In this document: piece by piece, positions 8,752 to 36,140 of the stretch | How positions within the stretch are numbered: the stretch's first letter is position 1 | Layout of the letters: the number at the start of each line of letters is the position of its first letter | NCBI GenBank assembly: GCA_947452925.1 | Contig: CANGFK010000004.1 | Span: 1-40,127, forward strand | DNA: 40,127 nucleotides | Origin: Chitinophagaceae bacterium | GTDB taxonomy: Bacteria; Bacteroidota; Bacteroidia; Chitinophagales; Chitinophagaceae | Direction of reading: 5' to 3' | Made by a program: the position numbers and the translations under genes | The notes under the pieces: model-generated | Databases searched by the model: none | What the model saw: only the letters and a program-made list of their open reading frames with translations | Told to the model about the DNA's origin: nothing

Positions 8752-8928
8752 AGGTGATAAAGGTGGCGACCTTTATCGTTCAGGTGGTCACCCATTGCGA
8801 AAAGGTGGTCACCTTTTTCATTTAGGTGAAGACCTTTTACAAAAAGGTGGGGATTTTTATCATTTAGGTGGCCACCTTTATTGTTTGGGTGAGCACCTAG
8901 ATGAATTAGGGGAAGGTATTTTGGTTTA
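8752..8928. repeat. 21-bp-period array A; core AGGTGGYCACCT, about 7 full units plus degenerate ends
   Basis: Units at 8761 AGGTGGCGACCTTTATCGTTC, 8782 AGGTGGTCACCCATTGCGAAA, 8803 AGGTGGTCACCTTTTTCATTT, 8824 AGGTGAAGACCTTTTACAAAA, 8845 AGGTGGGGATTTTTATCATTT, 8866 AGGTGGCCACCTTTATTGTTT, 8887 GGGTGAGCACCTAGATGAATT. Confidence 0.9.
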
Positions 8929-8991
8929 AGAACTGGTGGATGAATGGTATTGAGGGTATATATTTGTGCTAGTAATCAACACCAATAAGTC

Positions 8992-9366
8992 ATGAAAGTA
9001 TTTTCTATATTGTCTTTGTTTTTTATTGCAACCTCTTGTAATTTAGGTGATAGTAAATCAATAAATGACTTATTAAATCACACAAATAAAGTAAGGCTGA
9101 TTAGAATTTTTAATAGCGATACATTAACTCATGACATCGTTGACAAAGAAGGAATTGAAATTTTTAAAGAAATTATTGATGTCAGAGACTATAATTTGCC
9201 TAAAAGTGTAGTGGGTGGTGAGATAATCTATATGTCTAATAATAAAGTTCTTTTGAGGGCATCTGTTACAGATCAAGGCATAGAATATAGTTTTAATAAT
9301 AAATTCTTTCATGAAAGATTCACTTACAGGGCTGGAATGTATTTTTCTGAGATTTGGCAACGATAA
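8992..9366 (+). CDS. Hypothetical lipoprotein
   Basis: MKVFSILSLFFIATSC lipobox-like N-terminus; intact ORF. Confidence 0.6.
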   Translation: MKVFSILSLFFIATSCNLGDSKSINDLLNHTNKVRLIRIFNSDTLTHDIVDKEGIEIFKEIIDVRDYNLPKSVVGGEIIYMSNNKVLLRASVTDQGIEYSFNNKFFHERFTYRAGMYFSEIWQR

Positions 9367-9580
9367 TACAAGGATAAGATTAACAATCAAATTGTCGACA
9401 TAAAATTTCACTACATCCGCTTTCTTTCTGCCCCTTTCCTTCTTCCCTCCTTCATGCCTAAACCTTATCCCTTACGCCTTATCCCTCCCTCTCCTTAAAG
9501 CAATTCTTTCCCGATTCTGATACTCCCAATTACCCATATCGTAATGTTATACCATTCCGTAGGGTTACATTTGCCGCTAA

Positions 9581-11698
9581 TTGAAAAATACACCCTTACA
9601 TATCGCACTGGTAGGCAACCCAAACAGTGGTAAAACGTCGCTGTTCAATGCATTAACAGGACTCAACCAACAGGTTGGCAACTTCCCAGGCGTTACCGTC
9701 GATAAGAAAACAGGGTTTATTAATCTCGATGACGAAATCAAAGCCGAACTTATAGACCTTCCCGGTACTTATAGCCTCTATCCTCGCCGTGCCGATGAAT
9801 GGGTAGCGTACAAAGTATTGATGAATGCCGACACCGAAGAAGTAAAACCCGATCTGGTTTTGCTTGTTGCCGATGCTAGCAACCTCAAACGTAACCTCCT
9901 CTTTTGTAGTCAGATACTAGACCTTAAGATTCCGGTAGTATTGGCTTTGACCATGAACGACCTGGCAGAAAAGAAAGGAATCAAGATAGATGTCAATGGA
10001 TTGGCAACCGATTTGGGCGTTCCGGTTGTCTTGGTCAATCCGAGGAAGAACAAAGGGCTTTCCGAATTAAAAAAAGTCTTGGCAAGGGCGTCTAAAGCTA
10101 CCAGCAAAAAATTTCAACGTTACTTTATCGATGCCGAAAAGCTTGCACCAAAAGCCATTGCTGATGTGCAAAAGCTCTTTCCTCAATTGAGTGACTATGC
10201 TGCCATACATTATCTCATAAATCACGAAAACTTCCCTTTGTCCGACCCACAACAGGAAGCCATTGAGCAGATTGAAATAGATAATAACTTCAATCCCACC
10301 AAAACGCAGGCAGAAGAAATAATGCAACGCTACCAACGTATCAAGACTACGATGGGGCAAAATGTGGTAGAACCCGATCCGCTAGAGAAAAAACTCTTTA
10401 CAGAAAAGCTCGACAACATATTGCTTCACCGTACGTGGGGCTATCTGATTCTCATCACAGTATTGTTCCTCTTGTTCCAAAGTATATTCTGGTTAGCACA
10501 GTTCCCAATGGACGGTATCGAATGGGTATTTCAACAGTTAGCCACTTACCTCAACAATCAATTGCCCGCAGCTTGGTGGAGCGATTTGTTGGTGAATGGT
10601 TTAGTAGCCGGTCTCAGTGGCATCATGGTTTTCATTCCCCAAATAATGATTTTATTTGGATTGATTACCCTCTTGGAAGACACCGGATACATGGCGCGCA
10701 TTAGTTTCCTGACTGATAAACTTATGCGCAAAGTTGGACTCAATGGCAAAAGCGTCATGCCCATGATTAGTGGTTTTGCCTGTGCCGTTCCTGCCATCAT
10801 GAGTACCCGTAACATAGAAAACAAAAAGGAACGGCTACTCACCATCCTCATCACCCCACTCATGAGTTGTAGTGCAAGACTTCCGGTCTATACTATCCTC
10901 ATCTCATTGGTCATCGACAATAAATATTATTTCGGTTTCCTCAGCCTGCAAGGGCTGGTGATGATGGCACTCTATCTTTTAGGCACTGTGATGGCACTCA
11001 TAGTCAGTTTTGTAGCCAAATGGTTTATCCATATCAAAGAAAAAAGCTTTTTCATACTCGAATTGCCCGTTTACCGTAGTCCTCGTTGGAAGAATGCAGG
11101 TATTACCATGGTCGAAAAAGCAAAGATTTTTGTTAGGGATGCAGGAAGGGTAATCATTACCATCAGCCTCTTGTTATGGTTTCTCAGTTCTTTTGGACCC
11201 GGCAACAGAATAGCCAATCTCAAGGACAAGTACACCATTGCTGTTCAACAGCACCCCGAACAGAAGAATGAGCTGAACAAACAATTATCTTCAGAGAAGC
11301 TACAGAATTCCTATGCGGGCATTTTAGGAAAAGCCATTGAACCGGCTATCAAACCATTAGGTTATGATTGGAAAATTGGCATTGCCCTTATCACTTCTTT
11401 TGCTGCGCGCGAAGTTTTTGTGGGCACAATGGCAACGCTTTATAGTGTAGAAGAAGAAAATAATTCGTCTCTTCGCGAAAAGTTACAGGCTGCTCGTCAC
11501 CCCGATGGCAGCAAGGTCTATACCCTACCTGCAGCACTTTCGTTGATGGTGTTTTATGTGTTAGCCATGCAATGTATGAGCACGCTCGCTGTGGTAAAGC
11601 GTGAAACCAAAAGCTGGAAATGGCCCGTCATACAATTCGTGTACATGACTTTACTGGCCTATTCAATGAGTTGGTTGGTCTATCATCTATTTTCATAG
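9581..11698 (+). CDS. feoB: Ferrous iron transport protein B
   Basis: G1 motif GNPNSGKTSLFNALTG, QQVGNFPGVTVDKK, DLPGTYSLYP; C-terminal gate/transmembrane segments. Apparent TTG start. Confidence 0.95.
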   Translation: MKNTPLHIALVGNPNSGKTSLFNALTGLNQQVGNFPGVTVDKKTGFINLDDEIKAELIDLPGTYSLYPRRADEWVAYKVLMNADTEEVKPDLVLLVADASNLKRNLLFCSQILDLKIPVVLALTMNDLAEKKGIKIDVNGLATDLGVPVVLVNPRKNKGLSELKKVLARASKATSKKFQRYFIDAEKLAPKAIADVQKLFPQLSDYAAIHYLINHENFPLSDPQQEAIEQIEIDNNFNPTKTQAEEIMQRYQRIKTTMGQNVVEPDPLEKKLFTEKLDNILLHRTWGYLILITVLFLLFQSIFWLAQFPMDGIEWVFQQLATYLNNQLPAAWWSDLLVNGLVAGLSGIMVFIPQIMILFGLITLLEDTGYMARISFLTDKLMRKVGLNGKSVMPMISGFACAVPAIMSTRNIENKKERLLTILITPLMSCSARLPVYTILISLVIDNKYYFGFLSLQGLVMMALYLLGTVMALIVSFVAKWFIHIKEKSFFILELPVYRSPRWKNAGITMVEKAKIFVRDAGRVIITISLLLWFLSSFGPGNRIANLKDKYTIAVQQHPEQKNELNKQLSSEKLQNSYAGILGKAIEPAIKPLGYDWKIGIALITSFAAREVFVGTMATLYSVEEENNSSLREKLQAARHPDGSKVYTLPAALSLMVFYVLAMQCMSTLAVVKRETKSWKWPVIQFVYMTLLAYSMSWLVYHLFS

Positions 11699-11770
11699 GT
11701 AGAAAAATAGGATGTAGAAAGTACAAACTACATTACTACAATATTTCATACTTCATATCTCCTATTTCTT

Positions 11771-11865
11771 TTTGGCGTGTCCCCGCAGCACGGGGTCGGG
11801 CTTTCCGTTCCAATCTTTTTGCCCAGGGCAGCAAAAAGGATTTCCACTACACTCCCTCACGTACT
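11771..11865. repeat. Dispersed-type intergenic element with small hairpins
   Basis: TTTGGCGTGTCCCCGCAGCACGGGGTCGGGCTTTCCG...CTTTTTGCCCAGGGCAGCAAAAAGGATTTCCACTACACTCCCTCACG; internal stems CCCC/GGGG and CTTTTTGCC/GGCAGCAAAAAG. Recognised from memory as a recurrent Bacteroidota intergenic sequence. Confidence 0.55.
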
Positions 11866-11889
11866 AGTCAATCCGGCTCACAATACACA

Positions 11890-12400
11890 TAAAACACCCC
11901 CTTTGCACCTTTTATTTTCCGCAATACCATCAAAGAAACTGCTTTTGTTCCCCAAAATTGGCGGCAACCTCCAAAAGGAACCTGTTACACACCCTGTTTT
12001 TAAATACAAGTTGTAAAAGGAGTTCCTTATGCAACTTGTATTTGAAGGCAAGCACCAAAAGAAGCTTGTTGCACTACTTGCCCCCACGGCAACTTGTGCG
12101 AGGAACTCCTTACACAAGTTGCCAGCATTTCCAGAGGTTGTAAGAAAGTCCCACGGCATATAATTTAAAATTCAGACACCAAAAGGAGTTCCTTTTATAC
12201 CTTGCCTTTAAATACAATGGCTGTGGGACTTTTTTTGAGGCATTGCGCATAAATACAACCATCAGAAGGAGTTCTTTTTAGTGATTGCAGATAAAGGCAA
12301 GCTATTAAAAAAGTTCCTTTTTGTATTTGTGCTTAACAATAAGATGTCGAAGGAGTTTCGGAAAGAGATTAGTTTATGCTGTAGGTTGTAAATTGGATTG
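11890..12400. repeat. 42-bp-period (2 x 21) degenerate array B; core AAAAGGAGTTCCTTTT
   Basis: GGAGTTCC-like cores at about 11935, 11977, 12019, 12061, 12102, 12144, 12185, 12226, 12268, 12310, 12352: spacing 41-42 bp throughout. Confidence 0.85.
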
Positions 12401-12435
12401 CGTTTGAAGTAGGGGAGTATACTTACTAAATAAAT

Positions 12436-12840
12436 GTACCGTTAGGTACGGTATATTGGTAGCAAACAACCCTACAATTACATTAAAGTGCCGTAGGCAC
12501 GACATATTGTTTTGATTTACAGAACAAATGCCTCATCTATTCCTATAATGACTATCCGCTTGTTGGTAATTCACTTTAATCTTGTGCATAATCTAGCCGT
12601 CATTTCGACGATAGGAGAAATCTAACCGAATAATATGGCTGGTTTCAATTGTATAATTGCGCAATTAATCAGGATTAGATTTCTCCTATCGTCGAAATGA
12701 CGTTCCTTTGGGTTCGAGAAACTTAGTACCAACAAGCGGATACTCATTATTCCTATTTATTATCCAACATGTCGTCCCAAATGGGACTTTAAGAATTTCT
12801 TATTACTAACCTTCTACCAATATTTCGTACCTAACGGTAC
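12436..12840. repeat. Nested palindrome of four inverted-repeat pairs
   Basis: Pairs: 12436-12462/12814-12840 (GTACCGTTAGGTACG..ATATTGGTAG); 12485-12511/12764-12790 (AAAGTGCCGTAGGCACGACATATTG versus AAAGTCCCATTTGGGACGACATGTTGG); 12553-12568/12727-12742 (TATCCGCTTGTTGGTA, perfect); 12598-12625/12675-12702 (CGTCATTTCGACGATAGGAGAAATCTAA, perfect). Confidence 0.9.
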
Positions 12841-12950
12841 TTGACTACAATAATTTCAATCTCTTATTATCATTGATTTTTATTTTTGTGTAATTATTAC
12901 ACATTAATACAGCATCTACGCCTTATTTTTATCAATCAATTACTTGTTTT

Positions 12951-15278
12951 ATGAAAAAGATACTTCTGCCTTTGCTTTTTTTATTGGTTAATTCAACCAT
13001 ATTCTCCCAAACTACTCACCTCAAAACGGAGGATGGTTCGTTTACTTTTATTCCGCTTCGAGAAAATATCATCAAAGTAACATTTCAGCCCATTGGTTAT
13101 ACCCATAATGAAAACATCAGTGATGCAGTCATCTTAAAACCGACTACTATTCCTTATAAATGTTCGGTTGTGCAAAATGGTAACACTGTTTTGGTGAATA
13201 ATACCGTTACAATTGCTGGCACGCACCATACAAATAACTTCAATAGCTTTTATTTTAGTCTATCTCCCGATGAAAAGATATTTGGTGGGGGAGAGAGGGC
13301 GTTGCCTCTAGACAGAAGGGGGTACAAATTGGACCTATACAATGCTCCTTGGTATGGATATGGCGAGGGTGCGGACCATCTGAACTATAGCGTACCCTTT
13401 TTTACTTCCTCTAGGGGATATGGGCTCTTTTTTGACAACCCATCGAGGGGATATGTGGATATTGGCAAGAAAGATTCATCGGTTTTGGAGTATGGTGCTG
13501 CAAGTGGCGAGCTTACTTTCTATATTATTCTAGGAAAAGACTACAAAACAATTCTACAGAACTACTATTCTCTCACTGGTACACAACCTTTGCCCCCACG
13601 TTGGGCATTGGGCAACCTTATGAGTAGGTTTGGCTACACCAGCGAGGCACAAGTGAAATCTATTTACGGTAAGATGAAGAATGATAACATCCCGGTTGAT
13701 GGTGTTATCTTCGATTTGTTTTGGTTTGGCGATAGTATCAAAAACGGTTTGGGCAATCTGGATTGGGTTAACAAAACAAAGTGGCCTGATCCTAAAGGTA
13801 TGATTGCCGGTTTTAGAAAAAACAATGTAAATACCATCCTAGTAACAGAACCTTTCGTTGTAAAAAATACATTGGCATATAATAGTTCAAAGCCTTACCT
13901 GGCAACGGACAGTATTGGTAATCCTGATCAGATTTCTGAGTTCTATTTTGGCAATGCAGGCTTGGTTGACATCTTTAGGAAAGATTCAAAAGACTGGTTT
14001 TGGACGTATTATAAAAAACAAATGACATTAGGCGTAGAAGGTTGGTGGGGAGATTTGGGAGAACCCGAAATGCATCCGACCGCTATGTTCCATAACTTGA
14101 AAGATTTTGGATTTAAAAGACCCTTTTCCGCAGATGAAGTGCATAATGTGTACGGACACAACTGGACTAAAATGTTATTTGATAAATATGCCACAGATTA
14201 TCCCAACAAAAGATTGTTTAGCTTGAATAGAAGCGGGTTTGCAGGTACCCAACGATATAGTATTTTCCCTTGGACGGGCGATGTAAGCAGAAGTTGGAGT
14301 GGATTGAAAGCACAATTACCCGTTTTGTTGGGCATGAGTATGAGTGGCGTTCCTTATGTGCATAGTGATGCAGGTGGTTTTGCAGGTGGGGAGGGAGATA
14401 ATGAATTATATGTCCGTTGGTTGCAATTGGCAGCTTTTACGCCCATCTTCAGACCACATGGTACCGCTTTATTTGAGGTTGATAAGCAAGCTTTTAGTTT
14501 TCCTTCCGAGCCTGCATTAATTGATGAGCCATATAAAACCATCGCTAAAAAGGTAGTAAACCAACGTTACCAGTTTTTGGCGTACAATTACACACTAGCA
14601 TTCCAACAAACCCGCAATAAACAACCGCTTATGCGCCCAATGTATTATGAGAATCCAACAGATTCCATTGCTTGCGCTACCGGTGACGAATATTACTGGG
14701 GAGAGAACATTATTGTGGCACCCGTGTTGGAAAAGGCTACCAACTTCAAAAAGGTTTATCTGCCAAAAGGCGTCTGGTACAACTATAACACGAAAGAAAA
14801 GGAGAAAGGAGAAAAACAATTTAAAGAACCAGTCTCACTTGACGCTATTCCCATTTATGTAAAAGCAGGAACAATTTTGCCACTCTATAAAGAGACGGTT
14901 TTTACCAGCACAACGGCTCTTAAGAATGATAAATTAACGATAGAATACTATCCTTCAGAGGAAAAGTCTGCCTATACGCTTTATCTTGACGATGGAACAA
15001 GCAAGAATGCCTTGGTTTCAAATCAGTATGAATTGATCTCCTTTTCTGCACAGACGGTTGCAGAAAAAGGTTACCGTTTTTCCATCAACTCCAACCAAGG
15101 AAACTACAAAGGGAAACCAGTAAGCACTCTTTTTACTTTATCAATAGTGCAAACGAAGGCCTTTAAAAATGTATTTGTCAATGGAATAAAACAAAATACC
15201 TCAGTAGATTATACCAACAACACCCTGTGTTTTCCAATCAGGTTCACTGGCTCACCATTAAAGATAGAAGTGAAGTAA
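12951..15278 (+). CDS. Glycoside hydrolase family 31 (alpha-glucosidase-like), secreted
   Basis: Signal peptide; PPRWALGNLMSRFGYTSEAQVKSIYGKMKNDNIPVDGVIFDLFWFGD, GWWGDLGEPEMHP, HSDAGGFAGG motifs. Confidence 0.92.
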   Translation: MKKILLPLLFLLVNSTIFSQTTHLKTEDGSFTFIPLRENIIKVTFQPIGYTHNENISDAVILKPTTIPYKCSVVQNGNTVLVNNTVTIAGTHHTNNFNSFYFSLSPDEKIFGGGERALPLDRRGYKLDLYNAPWYGYGEGADHLNYSVPFFTSSRGYGLFFDNPSRGYVDIGKKDSSVLEYGAASGELTFYIILGKDYKTILQNYYSLTGTQPLPPRWALGNLMSRFGYTSEAQVKSIYGKMKNDNIPVDGVIFDLFWFGDSIKNGLGNLDWVNKTKWPDPKGMIAGFRKNNVNTILVTEPFVVKNTLAYNSSKPYLATDSIGNPDQISEFYFGNAGLVDIFRKDSKDWFWTYYKKQMTLGVEGWWGDLGEPEMHPTAMFHNLKDFGFKRPFSADEVHNVYGHNWTKMLFDKYATDYPNKRLFSLNRSGFAGTQRYSIFPWTGDVSRSWSGLKAQLPVLLGMSMSGVPYVHSDAGGFAGGEGDNELYVRWLQLAAFTPIFRPHGTALFEVDKQAFSFPSEPALIDEPYKTIAKKVVNQRYQFLAYNYTLAFQQTRNKQPLMRPMYYENPTDSIACATGDEYYWGENIIVAPVLEKATNFKKVYLPKGVWYNYNTKEKEKGEKQFKEPVSLDAIPIYVKAGTILPLYKETVFTSTTALKNDKLTIEYYPSEEKSAYTLYLDDGTSKNALVSNQYELISFSAQTVAEKGYRFSINSNQGNYKGKPVSTLFTLSIVQTKAFKNVFVNGIKQNTSVDYTNNTLCFPIRFTGSPLKIEVK

Positions 15279-15288
15279 CCATATAATA

Positions 15289-15327
15289 AAATAACCCGAT
15301 TGACTAGATCAATCGGGTTATTTTCTA
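15289..15327. terminator. Bidirectional terminator-like hairpin between convergent genes
   Basis: AATAACCCGATTGACTAGATCAATCGGGTTATTTT. Confidence 0.85.
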
Positions 15328-15351
15328 AACGTATAACGTAATACTTAAAAC

Positions 15352-15867
15352 CTACAACTCTTTTGCTTTCTTATAAATAGGTACTGTGCTGCACGGTTCT
15401 CCATACATGATGCTCTTTGCAAAAGGCCTGAGCTTTGCAGTAACTTCTACATAAGCACTTTCTGGTATGGATACCTCTCCACAACCTTTTACCACCACTC
15501 TTTTATCCAAATATTCCTCTCCTTTAAAGTTCGTGAGTTTTCTTGTTATCAAGGTAGAGATTAACTGCGCTTCATCCCCAAAAACAACCTCTTTAGCCAC
15601 AGGTTGCAGGTAATTAGCCGCCAACATATACGCCCACATTGGTATGACGGCATCTGCGGTACAAGTTACGGCCACATATTTACCCTGATATTTTTCCCAT
15701 TCGGTTGTTTGTAACGCTGCACGGTAGTCCTTTTCTTTTAGAATCAATCCCATAAAAAGATAGTCCTTCAAATCAAAAACTACTATCTCTCCTTTTGGAT
15801 AAAACTCCTCCAGGTCTAATGTTATAATGCCGCTTTCTGCTACTTTATTTACGATGACTGTTTCCAT
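15352..15867 (-). CDS. DUF2480 family protein
   Basis: VNKVAESGIITLDLEEFYPKGEIVVFDLKDYLFMGLILKEKDYR... matches remembered DUF2480 pattern. Confidence 0.8.
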   Translation of the reverse strand: METVIVNKVAESGIITLDLEEFYPKGEIVVFDLKDYLFMGLILKEKDYRAALQTTEWEKYQGKYVAVTCTADAVIPMWAYMLAANYLQPVAKEVVFGDEAQLISTLITRKLTNFKGEEYLDKRVVVKGCGEVSIPESAYVEVTAKLRPFAKSIMYGEPCSTVPIYKKAKEL

Positions 15868-15972
15868 GACTAATGATGATTAAACTGATTTGAATGAAAG
15901 AAATGATTTAGTTGGTTTAATGCGAAAGTACAGTCATCCTTACAATTTTTGTTTTCGGTAATTGCAAAAAAT

Positions 15973-16008
15973 AAGAAGCCGTCCTTTTAAATAAGGACGG
16001 CTTCTTAA
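15973..16008 (-). terminator. Intrinsic terminator downstream of the PPIase gene
   Basis: AAGAAGCCGTCCTTTTAAATAAGGACGGCTTCTT, T-rich on the minus strand after the stem. Confidence 0.85.
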
Positions 16009-16048
16009 TTATTTTTATCTCCTTTATTCCCCTTTAGGGGTTAGGGGC

Positions 16049-18148
16049 TTAATAAAATTTACTTCTATAATCCTTGATGGTTGCTGCTTTACGCAATGCA
16101 TCACCACCTCTGTAGAATGCCGAACGTTGTTGTTGCAATAGGGTTTGCTTCAACGTCTGCTCATCCGTAGTTGTAGATTTTGCTCCTATGTTTTCTACTC
16201 TTATTGCATAAACTCCGATTGATCCTGCAATAGCTTCACTCACTTTTCCTTTAAGATTCTTGTTGAAAGCCGCACCAATTACTTTACTTTCCATACCTAT
16301 TCCTGGTATGAATGCATTGGTAAATGAAAGGCTATCCGCTTTTGTAACTGGTGTACCTGTGCTTTGACTGATTGCTTCTAAAGATGCTCCCTTGAACTTA
16401 CTTTCTATAATTTGTTTCGCTTTCTTTTCGTTACGTGCCAACGATTCTACCTGAGGACGTAGCACAGAAACATCTGGCAAACCAGGTTTGTTAATAATTG
16501 TCTCAATTGCAACAATATACTTGTCACCAACTTCAAATGGTTCAGAAATATCTCCTTTATCGTGTGCATAAACCCAACGAACTAGCTCGCGAGATTGACC
16601 TACTGCACCTACATAAGAATCATTTTCCTTTATTTCATTGGCAGTTAGTCCTGCTTTATTTATTTTCTTAGCATTATCATTAAAATCTTGCAAGCTTTTG
16701 TTTTGTGCAGAGAACTGAGCAGCAGCAGTGCTTGCAGCAGAAACTGTTTCGGAACTAGCAATAATTGGTTTTGCCAAGTAAGCAATCTTATACGCAGGCT
16801 GAGGATTCTTTTGTCCCAATACTTCTATGTAGTGGTAACCATAATCAGTCTTTACTACGCCCTTGCTACCCACAGCTTTGTCGAAAGCAAACTCATTAAA
16901 CTCAGGAACCATTTGTCCTTGAGGGAAGAAATCATATACACCACCCTTATCCTTACTTCCTGGATCAGCAGAATATTTAGCACATAGCTGATCGAAGTTT
17001 GCTCCTCCAGCAATAGCAGTTTGTAGGCTATCGGCCAATTTCTTTGCCACGCTATCTTCTTTTATTTGCTGACCACTCTTAGGGTCTGTAGTAGCAATCA
17101 ATATATGACGCACCTTAGCACTATCAGGCCAGTTCTTTGTGCCAATCAGTTTTGCAATAACATAATTATTTCCATCTTGATAAGGACCATAAGTCTGACC
17201 AGCAGCCAATTTGAAGATGCTATCTTTCTTTGCTGACTCAACTTTTGCTTTAGAGAAATAACCATTTTTGAAAGCTATCTCAGTTCCTACTTTTCCTAGG
17301 TAAGCTTTTTCATCTTTTGTAGCAACAAAATCACCTTTCAAAGCACTGATAGAAGCCAATGTTGCAGCACTGTCAGCTCCACTTGGTGTTGCATCAAATG
17401 CTACATAGGTAATACCCCTTGTTTCCTCTTCTTTGTCGTATTCTTTGTGGTGTTTTTGCGCATAAGCAACAATTTCATCATCAGATACCTTAAGTGTAGA
17501 GTCTATTATAGTATTATATGGAACAGCTACATAACTGATAGATGCAATTGCATTGTTATCTGCTTGTGTTTTTTCAACTAACCATTTTGGTATATAAACA
17601 GAATGTTGCAACAGGTCGCTATATTTTGAACGTAGCTTCTGTTCGATAGTTGGTTTCAGATAAGCTTCATTAATCATCTCAATTTGCTCAGCATTCTTGC
17701 TCTTTTTTACCTGAGTGATGATCTGTTTTGCTTTCTCTACATCAAATACACCTGTTTTTTCGTCAGTAAATTCTCTTTTCAACGGAGATTGTTGAGGATC
17801 GAACAAGATATCAGACAATTCTTTGTCGCTAACAGACAATCCTAGCTTATCATATTCCTGGTTGTTGATGATACGCTCCACATCTTGATTCCAAACATTA
17901 GGAATCAGTTGCTCTCTGTTTCCTGCTTGCTGACCATACAATTTTTGCATCGTAGCCAACTCATTTTCAAAGTCAACACGTTCAATATTTACCCCATTTA
18001 CTTTTCCTAGTGTACTAGTATTAGTAAAAATACCGCCTCTTCCTCCACCGAGTGCCCTATCTTGTAGGATAAATGAAATTAAAGCAATAGCAATCAGCCC
18101 AAACATAATCCAGGCACCCTTATCACGAATCTTTTGAATAACAGACAT
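16049..18148 (-). CDS. Peptidylprolyl isomerase, PpiD/SurA-like (parvulin domain)
   Basis: N-terminal TM anchor MSVIQKIRDKGAWIMFGLIAIALISFIL; parvulin-like VRHILIATTDPKSG...FDQLCAKYSADPGSKDKGGVYDFFPQGQMVPEFNEFAF. Confidence 0.92.
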   Translation of the reverse strand: MSVIQKIRDKGAWIMFGLIAIALISFILQDRALGGGRGGIFTNTSTLGKVNGVNIERVDFENELATMQKLYGQQAGNREQLIPNVWNQDVERIINNQEYDKLGLSVSDKELSDILFDPQQSPLKREFTDEKTGVFDVEKAKQIITQVKKSKNAEQIEMINEAYLKPTIEQKLRSKYSDLLQHSVYIPKWLVEKTQADNNAIASISYVAVPYNTIIDSTLKVSDDEIVAYAQKHHKEYDKEEETRGITYVAFDATPSGADSAATLASISALKGDFVATKDEKAYLGKVGTEIAFKNGYFSKAKVESAKKDSIFKLAAGQTYGPYQDGNNYVIAKLIGTKNWPDSAKVRHILIATTDPKSGQQIKEDSVAKKLADSLQTAIAGGANFDQLCAKYSADPGSKDKGGVYDFFPQGQMVPEFNEFAFDKAVGSKGVVKTDYGYHYIEVLGQKNPQPAYKIAYLAKPIIASSETVSAASTAAAQFSAQNKSLQDFNDNAKKINKAGLTANEIKENDSYVGAVGQSRELVRWVYAHDKGDISEPFEVGDKYIVAIETIINKPGLPDVSVLRPQVESLARNEKKAKQIIESKFKGASLEAISQSTGTPVTKADSLSFTNAFIPGIGMESKVIGAAFNKNLKGKVSEAIAGSIGVYAIRVENIGAKSTTTDEQTLKQTLLQQQRSAFYRGGDALRKAATIKDYRSKFY

Positions 18149-19737: not shown

Positions 19738-19786
19738 AGAATAGATATTAGTTATTAGATATTAGATATTAGTTTCAGAACAAAAG

Positions 19787-19826: not shown

Positions 19827-19876
19827 TTATATTTTTTACAATTAATATCTACTATCTAATAACTACTATCTAAAAC

Positions 19877-23748: not shown

Positions 23749-23757
23749 CAATAGAAA

Positions 23758-27807: not shown

Positions 27808-27927
27808 CAGCACAATAATAAGATAGTAGAATAAATAGATAGTATGGTGCAACATATTGTGTAGCATCCTCCGCCTTTATTTCTTTACTTTGCGGCGATT
27901 ATTATAAATTAGAAAATAAGTTTACTT

Positions 27928-28890
27928 ATGAAAGTATCAGACATTCAGGTTCAAAACGAAAAAGAAACACGTGCCGGCTTTGGTGAAGGTATCTATGAGA
28001 TAGGAAAGGAAAACGAAAACGTAATTGTGTTGACGGCTGACCTTGCCGGTTCCTTTAAATTAGGACCATTTATTAAAGATATTCCTGAGCGTTTTGTTCA
28101 GTGTGGCATTGCAGAAGCAAACATGATTGGTGTTGCTGCCGGGCTTACAATTGGTGGTAAAATACCTTATACAACCACGTTTGCAAACTTTAGTACAGGT
28201 AGGGTTTACGATCAAATTCGTCAAAGTATTGCTTACAGTGGCAAGAATGTAAAAGTTTGTGCTTCTCACGCTGGTCTTACTTTGGGTGAAGATGGTGCTA
28301 CACACCAGATATTGGAAGATATTGGATTGATGAAAATGCTTCCTGGTATGACTGTTATCGTTCCTTGCGATTTCAACCAGACCAAAATAGCTACTAAAGC
28401 AATTGCTAGCTATGATGGACCAGTTTATCTACGTTTTGGTCGTCCAAAGTGGCCAAATTTCACAAAAGAAGATGGTAGCGACTTTGTTATTGGCAAGGCG
28501 CAACAGTTGAGTGAAGGAACCGATGTTACCATTTTTGCATGTGGTCACTTGGTTTGGAAAGCCATCGAAGCAGGTAAGGCATTGGAAGCAAAAGGCATTA
28601 GTGTAGAGTTGATAAACATACACACCATCAAGCCGTTGGATACCGAAGCCATCATCAAGTCTATCAAAAAGACCAAATGTGCGGTTACTTGCGAGGAGCA
28701 CAATATCATCGGTGGTCTGGGAGACAGTATTGCACAGGTAGCTGCCAAAAATTGCCCTATTCCTATTGAATATGTAGGTACAAACGACACTTTTGGCGAA
28801 AGTGGTACACCTGCACAATTGTTAGCTAAGTATGGTTTGGATACGCCTGATGTGATTGCAGCAGTTGAGAGAGTGCTTGCTAGAAAATAG
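27928..28890 (+). CDS. Transketolase C-terminal subunit family protein
   Basis: RAGFGEGIYEIGKENENVIVLTADLAGS...FVQCGIAEANMIGVAAGLTIGGKIPYTTTFANF. Confidence 0.93.
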   Translation: MKVSDIQVQNEKETRAGFGEGIYEIGKENENVIVLTADLAGSFKLGPFIKDIPERFVQCGIAEANMIGVAAGLTIGGKIPYTTTFANFSTGRVYDQIRQSIAYSGKNVKVCASHAGLTLGEDGATHQILEDIGLMKMLPGMTVIVPCDFNQTKIATKAIASYDGPVYLRFGRPKWPNFTKEDGSDFVIGKAQQLSEGTDVTIFACGHLVWKAIEAGKALEAKGISVELINIHTIKPLDTEAIIKSIKKTKCAVTCEEHNIIGGLGDSIAQVAAKNCPIPIEYVGTNDTFGESGTPAQLLAKYGLDTPDVIAAVERVLARK

Positions 28891-28916
28891 ATAGTAACTA
28901 GTAGTTAGTAGATATT

Positions 28917-28952
28917 AAAACACCCTTGAAGCAATTGTTTCAAGGGTGTTTT
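28917..28952 (+). terminator. Intrinsic terminator
   Basis: AAAACACCCTTGAAGCAATTGTTTCAAGGGTGTTTTTG. Confidence 0.85.
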
Positions 28953-29001
28953 TGTTGATGGAGGAGCGTAAAATATTGTTATTGTCAAATAATTCAATTC
29001 T

Positions 29002-29862
29002 CTAATCTTCTACTTCACAAACACACCTAAAAGTCAGCCAATTACAAGCATCTTGATATGAAGTAGTGAAGTTTATATTTTTCCAAGAAGTAGAATCTTT
29101 CCAATTTCTTCCTTTAGCAACATTTTTATCAGCTACTATTTCAGATAAATCATTCAAAATAAAGTTTTTAGAGACATAATTATGTTTACTTAGATCCGAG
29201 TCACTAAAACTCTGAGTAACCGCTCCTTGACCACTAAATGATATATTTTCATTGAAAGAAAACTTAATTGGCAAATGTGTTACCGCATACTCCCATTCTT
29301 CCTTAGTGGGCAGTCTATATTTTATTTTTTTATGGCAAGGCGCTCTTTCAGACATTTTTTTGTTTGAGGCATAATTCAACAATACCATATCTGTTCGCCA
29401 TTTGCAAAAAGCTTCTGCAACTTGATAAGAAATGTTTTTAACGGGATAATAATTATATCTAGGATCTGTGAGGTATTTAATAAATGGAGGATAACAAGTA
29501 TCTAATTGAATTGTGTGCAAAGCAATTTTAAATTTCGAGCTATCCGGATTAGGGGTAAAAGCAAAATTCTTTTCATACGAAATTCTATCAAATCCAAAAT
29601 AGGGCAAAGAATTAACAAGATTATCGAATTCAGAGAAGTTGTATTTAATTTTCTTTTTCATAAAATATTCATATTCTCTATAATGAACATTACAAACAGG
29701 CATGACATCAATGTACAAATTGTCTTTTAGCCATATAGTTCCCGGAGGATTCTCTTTCTTAACGCTCTCCTTTCGTTGTGCAGTGCAAGAAAAGTGCAGT
29801 CCCAAAATAAACAATAAGACGGCGTAGCAGCCTTTACTTGTTTTTATTTTATTGATAATCAT
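29002..29862 (-). CDS. SUMF1/formylglycine-generating-like domain lipoprotein
   Basis: Lipobox-like LHFSC; VAEAFCKWRTDM, YRLPTKEEWEYAV. Confidence 0.75.
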   Translation of the reverse strand: MIINKIKTSKGCYAVLLFILGLHFSCTAQRKESVKKENPPGTIWLKDNLYIDVMPVCNVHYREYEYFMKKKIKYNFSEFDNLVNSLPYFGFDRISYEKNFAFTPNPDSSKFKIALHTIQLDTCYPPFIKYLTDPRYNYYPVKNISYQVAEAFCKWRTDMVLLNYASNKKMSERAPCHKKIKYRLPTKEEWEYAVTHLPIKFSFNENISFSGQGAVTQSFSDSDLSKHNYVSKNFILNDLSEIVADKNVAKGRNWKDSTSWKNINFTTSYQDACNWLTFRCVCEVED

Positions 29863-29920
29863 ATACTTAATTCGATTTTACATTTTGGTTCATCCCTTAA
29901 TGATAACTCAAATATAAAGA

Positions 29921-29958
29921 CAGTTTGGGGGATATTGACTACATCGTCCCCTAAACTG
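29921..29958. repeat. Hairpin next to array C
   Basis: CAGTTTGGGGGA...TCCCCTAAACTG, 12-nt arms with one G-T position. Confidence 0.75.
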
Positions 29959-29971
29959 CTAATAAAAACAG

Positions 29972-30160
29972 CCAATATATATATGTATATGGTCAATATA
30001 TTCATATATATATCCAATATAGAGTAGTATATGGCGAGTATATACATGTATATGGACGATATATTCATATATATATTCAATATAGAGTAGTATATGGTGG
30101 GTATATACATGTATATGGTCAATATATTCATGTATATATCGTCCATATTCATGAATATTA
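29972..30160. repeat. 21-bp-period array C; nine contiguous 21-bp units with 63-bp superperiod
   Basis: CCAATATATATATGTATATGG / TCAATATATTCATATATATAT / CCAATATAGAGTAGTATATGG / CGAGTATATACATGTATATGG / ACGATATATTCATATATATAT / TCAATATAGAGTAGTATATGG / TGGGTATATACATGTATATGG / TCAATATATTCATGTATATAT / CGTCCATATTCATGAATATTA. Confidence 0.95.
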
Positions 30161-30363
30161 TGGCCCCCCACCGACTGAAACCTTCCTCCTAGAAACTAAT
30201 TGGAATTGCTAGTTGCAATAAGACTACTTTCAAGGGATTATTTTCATTTATTAAATTTAAAACAATGGCCGCAAGAGGAGCTAGTAAAGTGAAGAATTTC
30301 TCTAACCCTATTGTAAGAGCAGCGAATTAGACTCCTATCCCTTAATGGGAGAATAAAAGCAAA

Positions 30364-30957
30364 ATGCAAATAATACAATCCATACAAAACAGAATATACA
30401 CCATTCGTGGCGAAAGGGTCATGCTAGATTTTGATTTAGCAGCCCTTTATGAAGTGGAAACAAGGATATTGAACCAAGCTGTGAAGCGAAACCTAAAAAG
30501 GTTTCCCGATGATTTTATGTTCAGGCTCAGTGCTGGCGAATGGCAAAATATGCAGTCACAAATTGTGACCGGATCACCTATGTCATCACAATTTGTGATG
30601 ACAGAAATGGACAACAACCCAACATCACAATCTGTGATGTTGACATTACCCAAAAATCGTACAGGCAAGTATTTGCCTTATGCTTTTACTGAACAGGGCG
30701 TGGCAATGCTTAGTGGTATATTGAACAGCGATAAAGCAATAAATACCAATATTGCTATTATGCGCGCATTTATAGAAGTGCTAAAAGTGTTGTTGCAACA
30801 AACAGATATCCGCGAACAGTTACGGGAAATTAAAGAGAGAATGGGTGAACACGATACCCAACTTAACCAAATTTATGATGCAATGGAAAACCTCCTAGAT
30901 GAAAAAGCAGCTCAAAGAAAGTGGGATGATAGACAACGAATCGGGTTTAAGCAATAG
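30364..30957 (+). CDS. ORF6N domain-containing protein (KilA-N-like)
   Basis: IYTIRGERVMLDFDLAALYEVETRILNQAVKRNLKRFPDDFMFRLS ... YLPYAFTEQGVAMLSGILNSDKAINTNIAIMRAFIEVLK. Confidence 0.88.
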   Translation: MQIIQSIQNRIYTIRGERVMLDFDLAALYEVETRILNQAVKRNLKRFPDDFMFRLSAGEWQNMQSQIVTGSPMSSQFVMTEMDNNPTSQSVMLTLPKNRTGKYLPYAFTEQGVAMLSGILNSDKAINTNIAIMRAFIEVLKVLLQQTDIREQLREIKERMGEHDTQLNQIYDAMENLLDEKAAQRKWDDRQRIGFKQ

Positions 30958-30968
30958 GATTGGAGTTT

Positions 30969-31685
30969 CTACGCCAGTCCCAATTTTTCTACAGCGGCAA
31001 TGGCTGCGGCCTGGCTAGCGTCTTTTTTATTGAAGCCTTTTCCTTCGGAGAGGGTCTCACCATCCAAAACGGTTTTTATTACAAAGATTCTTCTGGTTCC
31101 TTCTAGTCTTTCCTCGTGCAAATCGAACGTGAGTACTTTGTTGTTTTTGCTGGCCCAACCAATCAATTTATTTTTCAGATTGATGTCTATCAGTTCCAGA
31201 TCATCTACAAACATGTGCGGAATGATGATTTGTTTGAGTACCCAGTTTTGAGTTTTTTTATAACCTTTATCAATGTAGACGGCACCCACAATGGCTTCGA
31301 GGGTATTGCCAAAGATGTGGCTATTTTTGAGGGCATTATCTAGTTTATTGAATAATGCAATCTTTTTGATGCCCATCTTCACAGCAATATCATTCAATTG
31401 CAGGCGGTTTACCATCTTACTACGCATCTCAGTAAGAAAACCTTCGCCTTTGTATGGATAACGTTTAAAAAGATAATCGGCTACAATAGCGCTCAAAATG
31501 GCATCTCCCAAATATTCCAACCTTTCGTTGTTTTCTTCGGGAGATTCCTTTACACTTCTGTGACTGAGTGCTGCCTTGTAGATAACAATATTATCGGGCT
31601 TAATGCCCAATATATTTACTATGCTTTTCTTAAAGGATTTTGCATCAGCATTTTTGTTACCAAAGAAGCGCTCTATTACTTGCAC
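30969..31685 (-). CDS. rnc: Ribonuclease III
   Basis: NERLEYLGDAILSAIVADYLF signature; EAIVGAVYIDKG; C-terminal dsRBD-like KKDASQAAAIAAVEKL. Confidence 0.95.
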   Translation of the reverse strand: MQVIERFFGNKNADAKSFKKSIVNILGIKPDNIVIYKAALSHRSVKESPEENNERLEYLGDAILSAIVADYLFKRYPYKGEGFLTEMRSKMVNRLQLNDIAVKMGIKKIALFNKLDNALKNSHIFGNTLEAIVGAVYIDKGYKKTQNWVLKQIIIPHMFVDDLELIDINLKNKLIGWASKNNKVLTFDLHEERLEGTRRIFVIKTVLDGETLSEGKGFNKKDASQAAAIAAVEKLGLA

Positions 31686-31694
31686 AATGTTTTA

Positions 31695-32948
31695 TTAGGG
31701 TATATATTTTTTCACAATCACACAAGCATTGTGACCACCAAAACCAAACGTATTGCTCAATGCAGCATTTACTGTTCTTGTTTGTGCTTTATTGAAGGTA
31801 AAATTCAATTTGGGATCTAATGCCGGATCATCTGTGAAGTGATTGATGGTTGGCGGAATAATATTGTGAATAACACTTTGTATACAAGCAATCGCTTCAA
31901 TAACACCTGCAGCACCCAAACAGTGACCAGTCATAGATTTTGTACTACTTATATTGAGGTTGTAGGCATGTTCACCAAACACTTGAGTAATTGCTTTTGC
32001 TTCTGCTACGTCACCAATTGGAGTAGAAGTTCCGTGTGTATTGATGTAATCAATATCTTCCGGCTTCATTCCCGCATCAGCCAATGCTGCAAACATTACA
32101 TTTTTTGCTCCCAATCCTTCTGGATGAGGGGCAGTAAGATGATAAGCATCAGCAGTAGCACCGCCACCAGCTATTTCGCAATATATTTTTGCACCACGTT
32201 TAAGAGCGTGTTCATATTCTTCCAATACCAAAACACCTGCAGCTTCACCCATTACAAATCCATCACGGTCTTTGTCATAAGGACGACTAGCTGTTTTAGG
32301 ATCATCATTGCGCTCGCTCATTGCTTTCATCGCATTGAAACCACCCACACCAGCTTCGCTGATTACTGCTTCAGAACCACCAGTTAATACAACATCAGCT
32401 TTTCCTAAACGAATAGTATCGAATGCAGAGATAATTGCGTTTGTACTACTAGCACAAGCACTCACTACTGCATAGTTTGGTCCACGGAAACCATGTTTCA
32501 TAGATATTTGCCCTGCGGCGATATCCAATATCATTTTTGGGATGAAGAAAGGATTGAAACGAGGTGTTCCATCTCCTTTTGCAAAATTGGTTACTTCTTC
32601 CTGAAAGGTAATCAAGCCACCAATACCACTTGCGAATATGACACCAACGCGGTCAACATCAACATTTTCGTGGGTTATATTAGAATCAGCAACAGCCATG
32701 TCGCTAGCCACCAATGCAATTTGTGCAAAGCGATCTAGTTTTCTTGCTTCTTTTACATTCATGTGCTGAGTAGGATCGAAACCCTTTATCTCGCAAGCAA
32801 ATCGTGTTTTAAATTTGGAAGCATCAAAGTTTGTGGTCATCTCTGCGCCCGAAACTCCATTTATCAGACCATTCCAATATTCATCTAAATTATTGCCCAA
32901 TGGGGTCAATGCCCCCATTCCCGTTACAACAACGCGTTTCATTTCCAT
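31695..32948 (-). CDS. fabF: Beta-ketoacyl-ACP synthase II
   Basis: RVVVTGMGALTPLGNNLDEYW; VSACASSTNAI; INTHGTSTPIGD; SNTFGFGGHNACVIVKK. Confidence 0.96.
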   Translation of the reverse strand: MEMKRVVVTGMGALTPLGNNLDEYWNGLINGVSGAEMTTNFDASKFKTRFACEIKGFDPTQHMNVKEARKLDRFAQIALVASDMAVADSNITHENVDVDRVGVIFASGIGGLITFQEEVTNFAKGDGTPRFNPFFIPKMILDIAAGQISMKHGFRGPNYAVVSACASSTNAIISAFDTIRLGKADVVLTGGSEAVISEAGVGGFNAMKAMSERNDDPKTASRPYDKDRDGFVMGEAAGVLVLEEYEHALKRGAKIYCEIAGGGATADAYHLTAPHPEGLGAKNVMFAALADAGMKPEDIDYINTHGTSTPIGDVAEAKAITQVFGEHAYNLNISSTKSMTGHCLGAAGVIEAIACIQSVIHNIIPPTINHFTDDPALDPKLNFTFNKAQTRTVNAALSNTFGFGGHNACVIVKKYIP

Positions 32949-33041
32949 ACGGCTAAAACCCTTTTAAGTGAAAATCCGCCGTTATGATGGCTAAAGCCTC
33001 AAAACTGGCGGATTATAATATTGCTTCAGTAATAAAGATTA

Positions 33042-33278
33042 TTACTTAGCGTTTTCTTCCAAGTAAGTAACCGCCTGACCAACAGTTGTGATGGTTTCTG
33101 CTTGCTCATCTGGAATTGAAATGTTGAATTCTTTTTCAAACTCCATGATTAATTCAACGGTATCTAAAGAATCTGCACCAAGATCATTAGTGAAAGACGC
33201 TTCATTTGTTACCTCAGCTTCGTCTACACCTAATTTGTCTACGATGATTTTCTTTACTTTAGTTGCGATGTCTGACAT
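33042..33278 (-). CDS. acpP: Acyl carrier protein
   Basis: [20 protein letters not shown] phosphopantetheine motif; adjacent to fabF. Confidence 0.97.
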
Positions 33279-33444
33279 TGTAGTAATTTTTTTAGTTACG
33301 GCAGCAAAAATATACTTTTTGGTAAAACTGCAACGTTTTAAATAAATTTTGTTTGAGATTACAGCTAGTTTATTGTTAAGTTTATTAAAATACGCTGTTT
33401 TTACGTTGTAAATAAGTGCTTGAACAACTAAATTTTATTAAAAA

Positions 33445-33888
33445 TTGTTTCAAATGATTTTAAAAAATATCGATTTTGACACCGTTGAATACAAAAAAAT
33501 GGTGCATTTGAGAACAATTATTCTGAGAAAGCCTCTCGGATTAACCCTCACACAGATGGAGTTGGAGTTGGATAAAGAAGATTTTTTGATGGGATGCTTT
33601 GATGATTCTTGTTCGGAATTACTAGCTTGTTGTGTTCTTACAAAAATTGATGAGGATATTATAAAACTCCGACAGATGGCTGTTGCAGAAAAATATCAGG
33701 GAAAAGGAATTGGTAAAGAGTTAATCTTATTTGCCGAAAAATTTGCAAAAAAGAAAGGCTTCAAACAAATGGTGATGAATGCCAGAAAAGTGGCAATAGG
33801 ATTTTATCAAAAGCTGGGATATACGCTGATAGGAAATGAATTTGTGGAAGTAAATATCCCTCATTATAAAATGGAAAAATATTTATAG
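33445..33888 (+). CDS. GNAT family N-acetyltransferase
   Basis: LRQMAVAEKYQGKGIGKELILFAEKFAKKKGFKQMVMNARKVAIGFYQKLGY. Confidence 0.9.
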   Translation: MFQMILKNIDFDTVEYKKMVHLRTIILRKPLGLTLTQMELELDKEDFLMGCFDDSCSELLACCVLTKIDEDIIKLRQMAVAEKYQGKGIGKELILFAEKFAKKKGFKQMVMNARKVAIGFYQKLGYTLIGNEFVEVNIPHYKMEKYL

Positions 33889-34019
33889 ATGAAATAAGGC
33901 CGGTTTTTGTAACCACAAACAGTTGATTAAAGCCATGCAATGGATAATGTTCTATTTCAAATAATTTTTTTTGAGTGCAATTACCTTTATTTTGTGGCTT
34001 AATCAATATATGTCTTTAA

Positions 34020-34448
34020 ATGGATTACAGTAAGTTAGTAGCAATAACAGGGGTTCCTGGTTTATTTGAATTGGCAGGAAATAAGGGAGATGGTATACTT
34101 TTAAAAAGTCTAGAAGATGGTTCTATAAAATTTATTTCATCAAGAAAAGGAGGCTTTTCTCAATTAGAAGCCATCGAAATATTTACTATCAGAGAAAATG
34201 TAAATCTTTCAGAAATATTTGTTGCAATGAGAGATAGTAAGGAGGAGTTGCCTTCTGATAAAGATCCAAAAGCAATTAAAAGTTACTTCGAAAAAGTTTA
34301 TCCCGATTTGGATTTCGATAGGGTTTACGGTAGCGATATGAAAAAAATGGTAAAATGGTTTGCAATTTTGAAAGCAAAAGACATTACCATAAAGGTATAC
34401 AACGACGAATCTGAAGGGGAAGAGCCTACGGAAGACGCATCTAAATAA
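34020..34448 (+). CDS. DUF5606 family protein
   Basis: MDYSKLVAITGVPGLFELAGNKGDGILLKSLEDGSIKFISSRKGGFSQLEAIEIFT matches remembered family pattern. Confidence 0.7.
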   Translation: MDYSKLVAITGVPGLFELAGNKGDGILLKSLEDGSIKFISSRKGGFSQLEAIEIFTIRENVNLSEIFVAMRDSKEELPSDKDPKAIKSYFEKVYPDLDFDRVYGSDMKKMVKWFAILKAKDITIKVYNDESEGEEPTEDASK

Positions 34449-34470
34449 TTATACCCTTTTTATATTATTT

Positions 34471-34504
34471 AAAAAGCCGCATAGAACCCTATGTGGCTTT
34501 TTTA
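34471..34504 (+). terminator. Intrinsic terminator
   Basis: AAAAAGCCGCATAGAACCCTATGTGGCTTTTTT. Confidence 0.85.
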
Positions 34505-34603
34505 GTGGCTGTATATTCCACCTAATAAAATTGAATAATTTTTTTAGGCATAAAAATGGGGGTTAGGTTTCTAATCTTTTTTATAACAGATAATGTAATA
34601 CTT

Positions 34604-35950
34604 ATGTCGAAAACAATACTGATAATTGACGATGAAGAAAAATTGCGTAACCTCTTGGCACGCATTATAAGAGCTGAAGGATTTGAAGTGTTGGAGGCTG
34701 GAACACTGAAGGAAGGTTCTAAAATATTAGCATCCAAACCTGTTGATGTGTTGCTGTGCGATGTTAAATTGCCAGACGGAAACGGCGTTGACTATGTTTT
34801 AAACACCAGAAACCTTCACCCCTCAATAGAAGTTATACTACTTACTGCTTATGGAAATGTAGCCGATGGAGTGCAAGCTATGAAGAATGGCGCGTTTGAT
34901 TACATCATAAAAGGAGACGATAACGATAAAATTATTCCGCTGCTAAATAAGGCATTTGAAAAAGTAAGTCTTCAAAAAAGAATAGAACAGCTTGAGGAAC
35001 AGGTAGGACAGAAATACAATTTTGATAGTATTTTGGGTAGTTCTACTCTTATTCAAGAATCAATCAGTTTAGCCAAAAGAGTGGCGCCAACAGAGGCAAC
35101 CGTTTTATTATTAGGAGATACAGGAACAGGAAAAGAGGTTTTTGCACAAGCAATTCATACTAGTAGTACACGTGCAGGTAAGCCTTTTATGGCTTTAAAC
35201 TGTAGTGCCTTTGGCAAGGAATTGCTGGAAAGCGAAATATTTGGTCATAAAGCTGGCGCATTTACTGGCGCATTGAAAGACAAAAAGGGATTGATAGAAG
35301 AAGCGAGTACAGGAACCTTGTTTTTAGACGAAATAGGTGAGATGCATATTGAATTGCAAAGTAAATTGCTCCGGGTTCTGGAAACAAGTGAGTTTATAAA
35401 AGTAGGAGATACCAAGCCTACCAAAGTAAATGTGCGCATTATTGCAGCCACAAACAGGGATTTGCAAAAAGAAGTGCAAGATGGAAAGTTTAGAGAAGAT
35501 TTGTTCTATCGATTGAATGTGTTTACCATTTTTCTTCCGAGCCTAAAGGATAGAAAGAAGGATATACCGATTCTCGCCAATCATTTTCTGCTTATATTCT
35601 CTACAAAAATCAATCGTAAAGTGACCAAAATGAGTGATGCTTTCTTAGCAACACTTAGCAAACACGATTGGAAAGGAAACATACGGGAACTGAAAAATGT
35701 GATGGAAAGGGCCGTTATTTTATGTGATGAGCAAGAACTTTCTGTGCAAAACCTACCCTTGGATATGCAATTGGCTTCTGATGAAAACAGCAATAAACAA
35801 CTATCTGCCTTCGAATTGGCAAGTGTAGAGAAACTCCATATTCAGCGAGTATTAAACCATTGCAAAGGCAATAAAACCGAAACCGCCAAGCTGTTGAATA
35901 TTGGACTCACTACCCTCTATAGAAAGATTGAAGAATACAAAATCGGGTAG
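34604..35950 (+). CDS. Sigma-54-dependent response regulator (NtrC family)
   Basis: Receiver MSKTILIIDDEEKLRNLLARII; AAA+ LLLGDTGTGKEVFAQAIH, GAFTGALKDKKGLIEEASTGTLFLDEIGEM; Fis-like HTH at C-terminus. Confidence 0.95.
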   Translation: MSKTILIIDDEEKLRNLLARIIRAEGFEVLEAGTLKEGSKILASKPVDVLLCDVKLPDGNGVDYVLNTRNLHPSIEVILLTAYGNVADGVQAMKNGAFDYIIKGDDNDKIIPLLNKAFEKVSLQKRIEQLEEQVGQKYNFDSILGSSTLIQESISLAKRVAPTEATVLLLGDTGTGKEVFAQAIHTSSTRAGKPFMALNCSAFGKELLESEIFGHKAGAFTGALKDKKGLIEEASTGTLFLDEIGEMHIELQSKLLRVLETSEFIKVGDTKPTKVNVRIIAATNRDLQKEVQDGKFREDLFYRLNVFTIFLPSLKDRKKDIPILANHFLLIFSTKINRKVTKMSDAFLATLSKHDWKGNIRELKNVMERAVILCDEQELSVQNLPLDMQLASDENSNKQLSAFELASVEKLHIQRVLNHCKGNKTETAKLLNIGLTTLYRKIEEYKIG

Positions 35951-35993
35951 TTAAATAAGCCCCCTACCTCTATTGGTAATCCATTAATTGTTA

Positions 35994-36140
35994 TCAGGAA
36001 AATATTTCCCGCGTACAGGCATAAGTTTTTTGTAATCGGGAAATGAATTCCCTCATTCGGGAATTCATTTCTTTTTATCGGGAATTGTTTTCCGGTATGC
36101 GGGAATATTTATTTTGTTATCGGGAATAAATTTCCCGGAA
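35994..36140. repeat. 21-bp-period array D; seven contiguous 21-bp units, core TCGGGAAATNAATTCCC
   Basis: TCAGGAAAATATTTCCCGCGT / ACAGGCATAAGTTTTTTGTAA / TCGGGAAATGAATTCCCTCAT / TCGGGAATTCATTTCTTTTTA / TCGGGAATTGTTTTCCGGTAT / GCGGGAATATTTATTTTGTTA / TCGGGAATAAATTTCCCGGAA. Confidence 0.93.

Follow-up and report, generated by a model that had tools for sequence, protein, structure and literature searches.

Unrelated intergenic arrays share a 21-bp pitch in one clade of freshwater Chitinophagaceae

Introduction

Bacterial tandem repeats are usually defined by their sequence. CRISPR arrays separate identical repeats by spacers of roughly 26-72 bp; in plasmid iterons and cooperative operator arrays, several weak sites stand in a row at a spacing of about two helical turns and are recognised through dyads or half-sites. 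According to published descriptions, REPs form large sequence families that carry GTAG or CGTC tags and alternate in orientation (PMC3733652, PMC2817692), and heptamer direct repeats such as TAACTGA are found in Bacteroidetes (PMC4679880). BrickBuilt, a 23-nt minisatellite MITE of Porphyromonas gingivalis, is a single sequence family with a leader, a tail and inverted-repeat ends (PMC4596501).

The window analysed here, a stretch of 40,127 nucleotides that is the whole of contig C4 in a 3.37 Mb draft genome of 416 contigs, contains four arrays that we could not match to any named repeat class; a literature search covering little subscription-only work gave no description of this class of array. 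BrickBuilt is similar in being intergenic, in occurring in the Bacteroidetes, in its head-to-tail units of similar length and in a unit number per site that varies between strains. However, the arrays here comprise dozens of families with dyad units at a 21-bp pitch and without common flanks; a MITE with an internal minisatellite was rejected, as no common leader or tail and no terminal inverted repeats surround them. REP and BIME elements are also small, palindromic, extragenic and numerous per genome, whereas the units here are unrelated in sequence and arranged in tandem at fixed pitch. Mobilisation by a RAYT transposase does not fit the counts of Y1_Tnp matches (0-7 per genome of the genus, and present in array-free genera outside the clade), and the 110 arrays compared do not reduce to one or a few families with a shared tag. 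Heptamers of the TAACTGA type likewise form many short intergenic direct-repeat arrays, and 7-bp arrays co-occur in this genome, but they occur in other genera too, whereas the 21-bp class is clade-confined, contains many unrelated families and does not repeat at 7 bp. Some arrays (L103, L107) recall CRISPR in having a conserved repeat and a variable spacer of fixed length; this candidate failed on spacer length, the variable part being about 7 bp within a 21-bp unit, and one genome holds many unrelated repeat families. With iterons and operators the arrays may share the two-turn spacing, the several sites in a row and the dyad or half-site, but they are chromosomal, number in the hundreds, belong to many families and are not located at a replication origin, and the protein is putative. 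Each of the nearest known kinds fails on at least one tested defining feature or requires a putative protein.

Results

Four arrays in the window

The arrays and their settings are as follows.

Array A, 8752..8928, no strand: 21-bp units, about 8 in number, with core AGGTGGYCACCT and a weak superperiod of 42 bp; the neighbours are an MBL-fold hydrolase gene (8067-8708, +) and an ORF at 8992.
Array B, 11890..12400, no strand: units of about 42 bp (41-42), AAAAGGAGTTCCTTTT-like cores in alternation with inverted arms of greater length, AAATACAAGTTG/CAACTTGTATTT; downstream of feoB, which ends at 11698.
Array C, 29972..30160, no strand: 9 units of 21 bp, 63-bp superperiod, cores ATATACATGTATAT / ATATTCATATATATAT / ATATAGAGTAGTATAT; flanked by divergent genes (29002-29862, −, and 30364-30957, +).
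Array D, 35994..36140, no strand: 7 units of 21 bp, core CGGGAAnnnnTTCCC; it directly follows the gene of a sigma-54-type response regulator (34556-35950, +) and lies upstream of kdpA (36846-38564, +).

A preliminary description of the window had given arrays A, C and D these positions and a 21-bp pitch, with superperiods of 42 bp in A and 63 bp in C, and this was borne out. Whole-array identity is 0.60, 0.60 and 0.57 in A at lags of 84, 42 and 21 bp, 0.81, 0.66 and 0.64 in C at lags of 63, 42 and 21 bp, and 0.68, 0.65 and 0.54 in D at lags of 42, 84 and 21 bp. Array B exists as described but its units are not exactly 42 bp: the pitch is about 41.7 bp with indels, and identity (0.44 at lag 42, 0.42 at lag 83, 0.38 at lag 41) is weaker than in the other three. 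Nor is the unit exactly 21 bp throughout the genome; in other arrays it varies from 20 to 22 bp. Near-palindromic cores had been ascribed to all four arrays. In A and C the dyads are significant against column permutation (p = 0.005 for each, the floor of 200 permutations), whereas the 12 short dyads of B do not exceed shuffled sequence (mean 10.4, maximum 19), longer inverted repeats being visible there by eye. The four families are unrelated to one another, as had been proposed, but not unique: A has relatives on four other contigs of the genome, B has one at L020:15286-15485 and C is likewise related to arrays at other places in the genome, while for D a relative was found in a sister species.

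Array C recurs as a paralogous copy (L011:16081-16341) that is 97.4% identical and free of gaps, which argues against these arrays being fast, hypervariable slippage tracts. The copy forms part of a duplicated locus (window 28913-30230, L011:15071-16426). Here the gene at 29002-29862 reaches only 81% identity between copies, against 96-97% for the flanks and array C to either side of it, suggesting that the gene is diversifying or that the flanks have been converted. A perfect 66-bp repeat adjoining array C (window 30263-30328) is shared with the duplicated locus (L011:16976-17041). Two other elements were noted in the window: a Flavo-1 RNA (RF01705, 49.9 bits) at 11790-11869 (−), directly between feoB and array B, and a dispersed inverted-repeat element (GTCATTTCGACGATAGGAGAAATCTAACCG ... 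and its complement) at 1-481 and at about 12590-12700, part of it a tandem duplication of 235 bp where the window begins.

Extent and pitch in the genome

An autocorrelation scan of 967 kb of the same genome, including a few contigs chosen for matching array A (a small bias), found about 76 arrays, nearly all intergenic, with lags of 21, 42, 63 or 84 bp (±1-2); extrapolation gives roughly 250 per genome. The first 371 kb scanned contains about 30 arrays of the 21-bp type, while a third-order Markov null of the same size, at the same threshold, contains none. Chance had already been doubted as an explanation, and the genome-wide excess, seen in this genome and in its relatives, is larger than had been thought.

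The intergenic pitches cluster at 20-22, 41-43, 62-65 and 82-87 bp. As 21 bp is about two turns of B-DNA, these clusters are consistent with two, four, six and eight helical turns and not with a reading frame. Of the two lengths that the period had been noted to match, two helical turns and seven codons, the first was upheld, as lags that are not multiples of three occur. Non-canonical lags include 20, 41, 43, 62, 65, 83 and 87 bp; those of 41, 43, 62, 65 and 83 bp rule out coding heptad or heptapeptide repeats for the intergenic arrays. Open frames are slightly more frequent than in column-permuted arrays (95% versus 85%). Some 21-bp-lag matches inside real ORFs look like coiled-coil coding sequence (L119:1121-1309) and were set apart.

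A lag-7 identity above 0.5 served to set apart a second class of arrays, the rest repeating at 21 bp and its multiples; besides this class, intergenic periods below 90 bp lie almost only near 21, 42, 63 and 84 bp. The 7-bp arrays (L013:16536-16687, L026:7946-8143, L132:1051-1220 and about 30 more) are tightly packed between genes and are built of inverted arms, as in (TTAGTGA)n - loop - (TCACTAA)n; other genera carry them too. In some arrays (L120:2307-2524, L014:6286-6396, L131:9620-9787, L103:8194-8370) the array's own unit is inverted around a strong palindrome, such as CACGTTTCATCGATGAAACGTG, inside the array or at its end. Several draft contigs end inside arrays (L023:5176-5376, L109:1-140, L133:1-205, L136:1-230); the arrays therefore probably contribute to the fragmentation of these metagenome assemblies.

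Dyads, arms and spacers

Dyad symmetry was compared with a null in which the tandem repeat is kept and the unit columns are permuted. Its mean in this genome is 0.726, against 0.594 in the null, and 23 of 42 arrays of the 21-bp type reach p<0.05 (combined chi-square 276.8 on 84 degrees of freedom); the sister genomes behave alike. The enrichment of dyad cores that had been anticipated is thus present, with a significant dyad in just over half of the arrays and none in about 40%. Variation falls mostly outside the arms, also as anticipated: in dyad arrays, arms are 82% identical between units and the remainder 54% (73% and 66% in the null), and the arms are the more conserved part in 33 of 34. 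The spacers drift with little change in length, and in L103, L107 and L130 the non-arm part is only 34-38% identical with the pitch still kept.

Signals of base pairing were absent. Compensatory changes within units are as frequent as expected (1294 against 1290, z=0.4; z=0.7 over 63 arrays of this genome), and G-U mismatches on the mRNA strand show no excess over A-C mismatches (57 against 53). The dyad therefore looks like a DNA-level feature and would act through independent half-sites. Selection for hairpins or cruciforms, as well as quasi-palindrome correction, was rejected on the missing compensation, and RNA hairpins on the missing G-U bias; the structural element, RNA or DNA hairpin, that had been put forward for the window gains no support from either. 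A conserved dyad or half-site in helical phase, as in operators or iterons, is seen in the dyad-bearing part of the class, about 40% of the arrays having no significant dyad.

Families and neighbouring genes

Grouping of the 110 arrays gave 17 families with more than one member and left 65 singletons, the cores being unrelated. The same family recurs beside unrelated genes, and the flanks contain no convincing common k-mer, the top words being AT-rich sequence or orthologues. Sixty-four arrays lie in gaps between genes: 36 tandem, 25 divergent and three convergent. For comparison, the 361 background gaps over 100 bp are 223 tandem, 92 divergent and 46 convergent. Convergent gaps are depleted of arrays by gap count (3/64 versus 46/361), an effect that is weak by gap length; a role as terminators of convergent genes was discarded, arrays not being enriched there. 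Several arrays separate apparently co-transcribed genes, namely nuoH/nuoI, kdpC/kdpD and gldF/gldG, names that we assigned by inspecting translations.

Solitary cores are not enriched outside arrays (for ACTGnnnnCAGT, 0 intergenic copies against 2.3 expected), which excludes a classic regulon with solitary operators. Among 890 ORFs covering about 30% of the genome there is no expanded family of DNA-binding paralogues, ruling out one expanded regulator family within that part. Involvement of a reverse transcriptase was likewise dismissed, RVT_1 having no match in this genome or in most genus mates.

Distribution in the family

Twelve genus mates, taken as a group, carry the same class of 21-bp arrays; twelve other genera of the family, sampled over 400 kb, gave one marginal match. 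Eighty named loci around feoB were compared, graded by FeoB identity. Where FeoB is at least 82% identical, all in uncultured freshwater Chitinophagaceae MAGs, eight of nine loci contain 21-bp arrays; below 82%, none of 71 does, including those of Sediminibacterium, Hydrotalea, Limnovirga, Ilyomonas and Chitinophaga, and two lag-87 matches among the 71 have no 21-bp component. The outermost members of the genus, G008 and G012, showed no arrays in stretches totalling about 66 kb. All this places the 21-bp class within a single clade of uncultured freshwater Chitinophagaceae.

Orthologous sites in sister species

What an orthologous site holds can vary: the family may be the same or another with a 21-bp pitch, or there may be a single unit or no array at all. 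At the site of array D, all seven units recur in G006, aligned without gaps over 147 bp at 78% identity; G010 has a 21-bp array of similar length and unrelated core, ACTGnnnnCAGT, between flanks that are 88-95% identical, and this family is present elsewhere in the window's genome; in G001 the array is absent. The orthologous arrays at L015 align with zero gaps over 176 bp at 85% identity. At L098 (kdpC/kdpD), the window's genome has about eleven units of TTTAGGNGGAGTCCTAATTCA, G010 has a single copy of the core and is 10 units shorter, and in G006 the site is occupied by another 21-bp family, which in the window's genome is found at L123. Site L124 (nuoH/nuoI) holds one family in the window's genome, another in G006 and none in G010, and the family has changed in one relative each at L015 and L102. 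The L103 site in G010, empty by the first anchor comparison, holds the same family. The array A site of G006 keeps its flanks, with about 6 units fewer in the array. No array matching B follows feoB in that genome, where the downstream gene is also different.

By our own classification, about 14 of some 25 informative site comparisons keep the family, 5 clearly change it (with 3 weaker cases) and about 6 are empty. If arrays arose independently, at the rate of 18% of gaps over 100 bp (64/361), the probability that at least 5 of 11 non-identical sites would carry one is about 0.03 by hand calculation. This is suggestive of an address, the intergenic site, that is retained while the family changes. 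Sites without arrays and differences in unit number had been named as things to look for among relatives and strains, and both occur among the relatives: the former at the D site in G001 and at L124 in G010, the latter, as in minisatellites and VNTRs, at array A in G006 and at L098 in G010. One core against many units at L098 means that unit number changes; the direction, from seed to array, would accord with the proposal that a common mechanism seeds and expands palindromes. Their supposed specificity to one locus is not strict, as many arrays belong to families that recur at several loci. The confinement to a clade and the presence of different families at one site in sister species go beyond the preliminary description.

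Discussion

Our leading explanation, in which we place somewhat less than even confidence, is that the arrays are minisatellites peculiar to this clade, which arise by amplification of short seeds, are maintained as DNA-binding platforms phased at two turns and are replaced out of a common library. The conservation of the arms, the stable length of the drifting spacers, the helical phase and the missing pairing signals together lead us to propose occupancy by a dimeric DNA-binding protein, which would select the arms and their phase. Proteins bound side by side on one helix face would hold the unit at two turns of B-DNA (21 +/- 1 bp). The arrays may thus act in the manner of operators or iterons, offering numerous weak dyad half-sites in phase, but with dozens of unrelated families scattered across the genome. 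An array would start from a short seed and grow through unit duplication, and families would spread between loci as a shared library, replacing each other at favoured intergenic sites. This explanation draws on the genome-wide pitch, the DNA-level dyads and the arms conserved beside length-stable drifting spacers, as well as on clade confinement, changing unit number and family exchange at orthologous sites. The gap-free orthologous arrays at D and L015 and the depletion in convergent gaps, counted by gap, also speak for it. The dyad-less arrays, the lack of solitary cores and, in about 30% of the genome, of an expanded DNA-binding family, the unrelated flanking genes, the several arrays between apparently co-transcribed genes and the absence of an array at the site in some sister species weigh against it.

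Several of these features fit the main rival, which we regard as possible but rather doubtful: neutral or selfish minisatellites without function, in which some process of replication or recombination restricted to the clade would multiply short seeds in increments of about 21 bp, dyads being favoured as seeds. The single seed facing about eleven units at L098, the presence, absence and exchange of families among sister species, the arrays that keep the pitch without a dyad, the unrelated neighbouring genes and the absence of solitary cores elsewhere are all as it would have them. It sits less well with arms conserved above spacers and with gap-free orthologous arrays; the gap-free array C pair at 97% does not look like hypervariable slippage, and a hairpin-templated process predicts the within-unit compensation that is absent.

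A role at the RNA level, in which transcribed arrays fold as hairpins or a long imperfect duplex and influence mRNA stability or processing in a REP/BIME-like manner, appears unlikely. Folding is indeed more stable than in column-permuted arrays (mean z -2.0, with 19 of 42 below -2), and several arrays lie between apparently co-transcribed genes, but the dyads alone explain this excess, the transcribed strand has no G-U bias or compensatory changes, 25 of 64 arrays lie between divergent genes and no Rfam match falls within an array, Flavo-1 being the sole match in the window. We think it very improbable that the arrays serve as decoys or incompatibility elements, in which iteron- or operator-like copies in the chromosome would titrate the replication or repressor proteins of phages and plasmids and turn over as the invaders change. 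The iteron-like size and phasing, the many families and their exchange between sister species would suit such a role. However, in collections that hold little from this clade, viral contigs have no array match for four of five core patterns, and the fifth has five viral matches, among them coding-type repeats but no array between genes that is comparable; array C is unmatched in plasmids and array A in phages. A phage or plasmid origin of the units was set aside for want of a comparable array in the same collections.

More broadly, and more tentatively than the binding platform itself, the arrays may represent a new repeat class in which length (two DNA turns) and address are conserved rather than sequence, with one clade-specific machinery or selective regime building, maintaining and swapping arrays. 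If this is true, the clade has a bacterial counterpart of the eukaryotic satellite library, made of 21-bp-phased arrays of arbitrary families. A two-turn pitch recurs here among unrelated sequences, roughly 250 times in each genome and within a single clade. Either a DNA-binding system responds to phase and not to one sequence, or replication or recombination proceeds by an inherent 21-bp step; each possibility would be new and can be put directly to the test.
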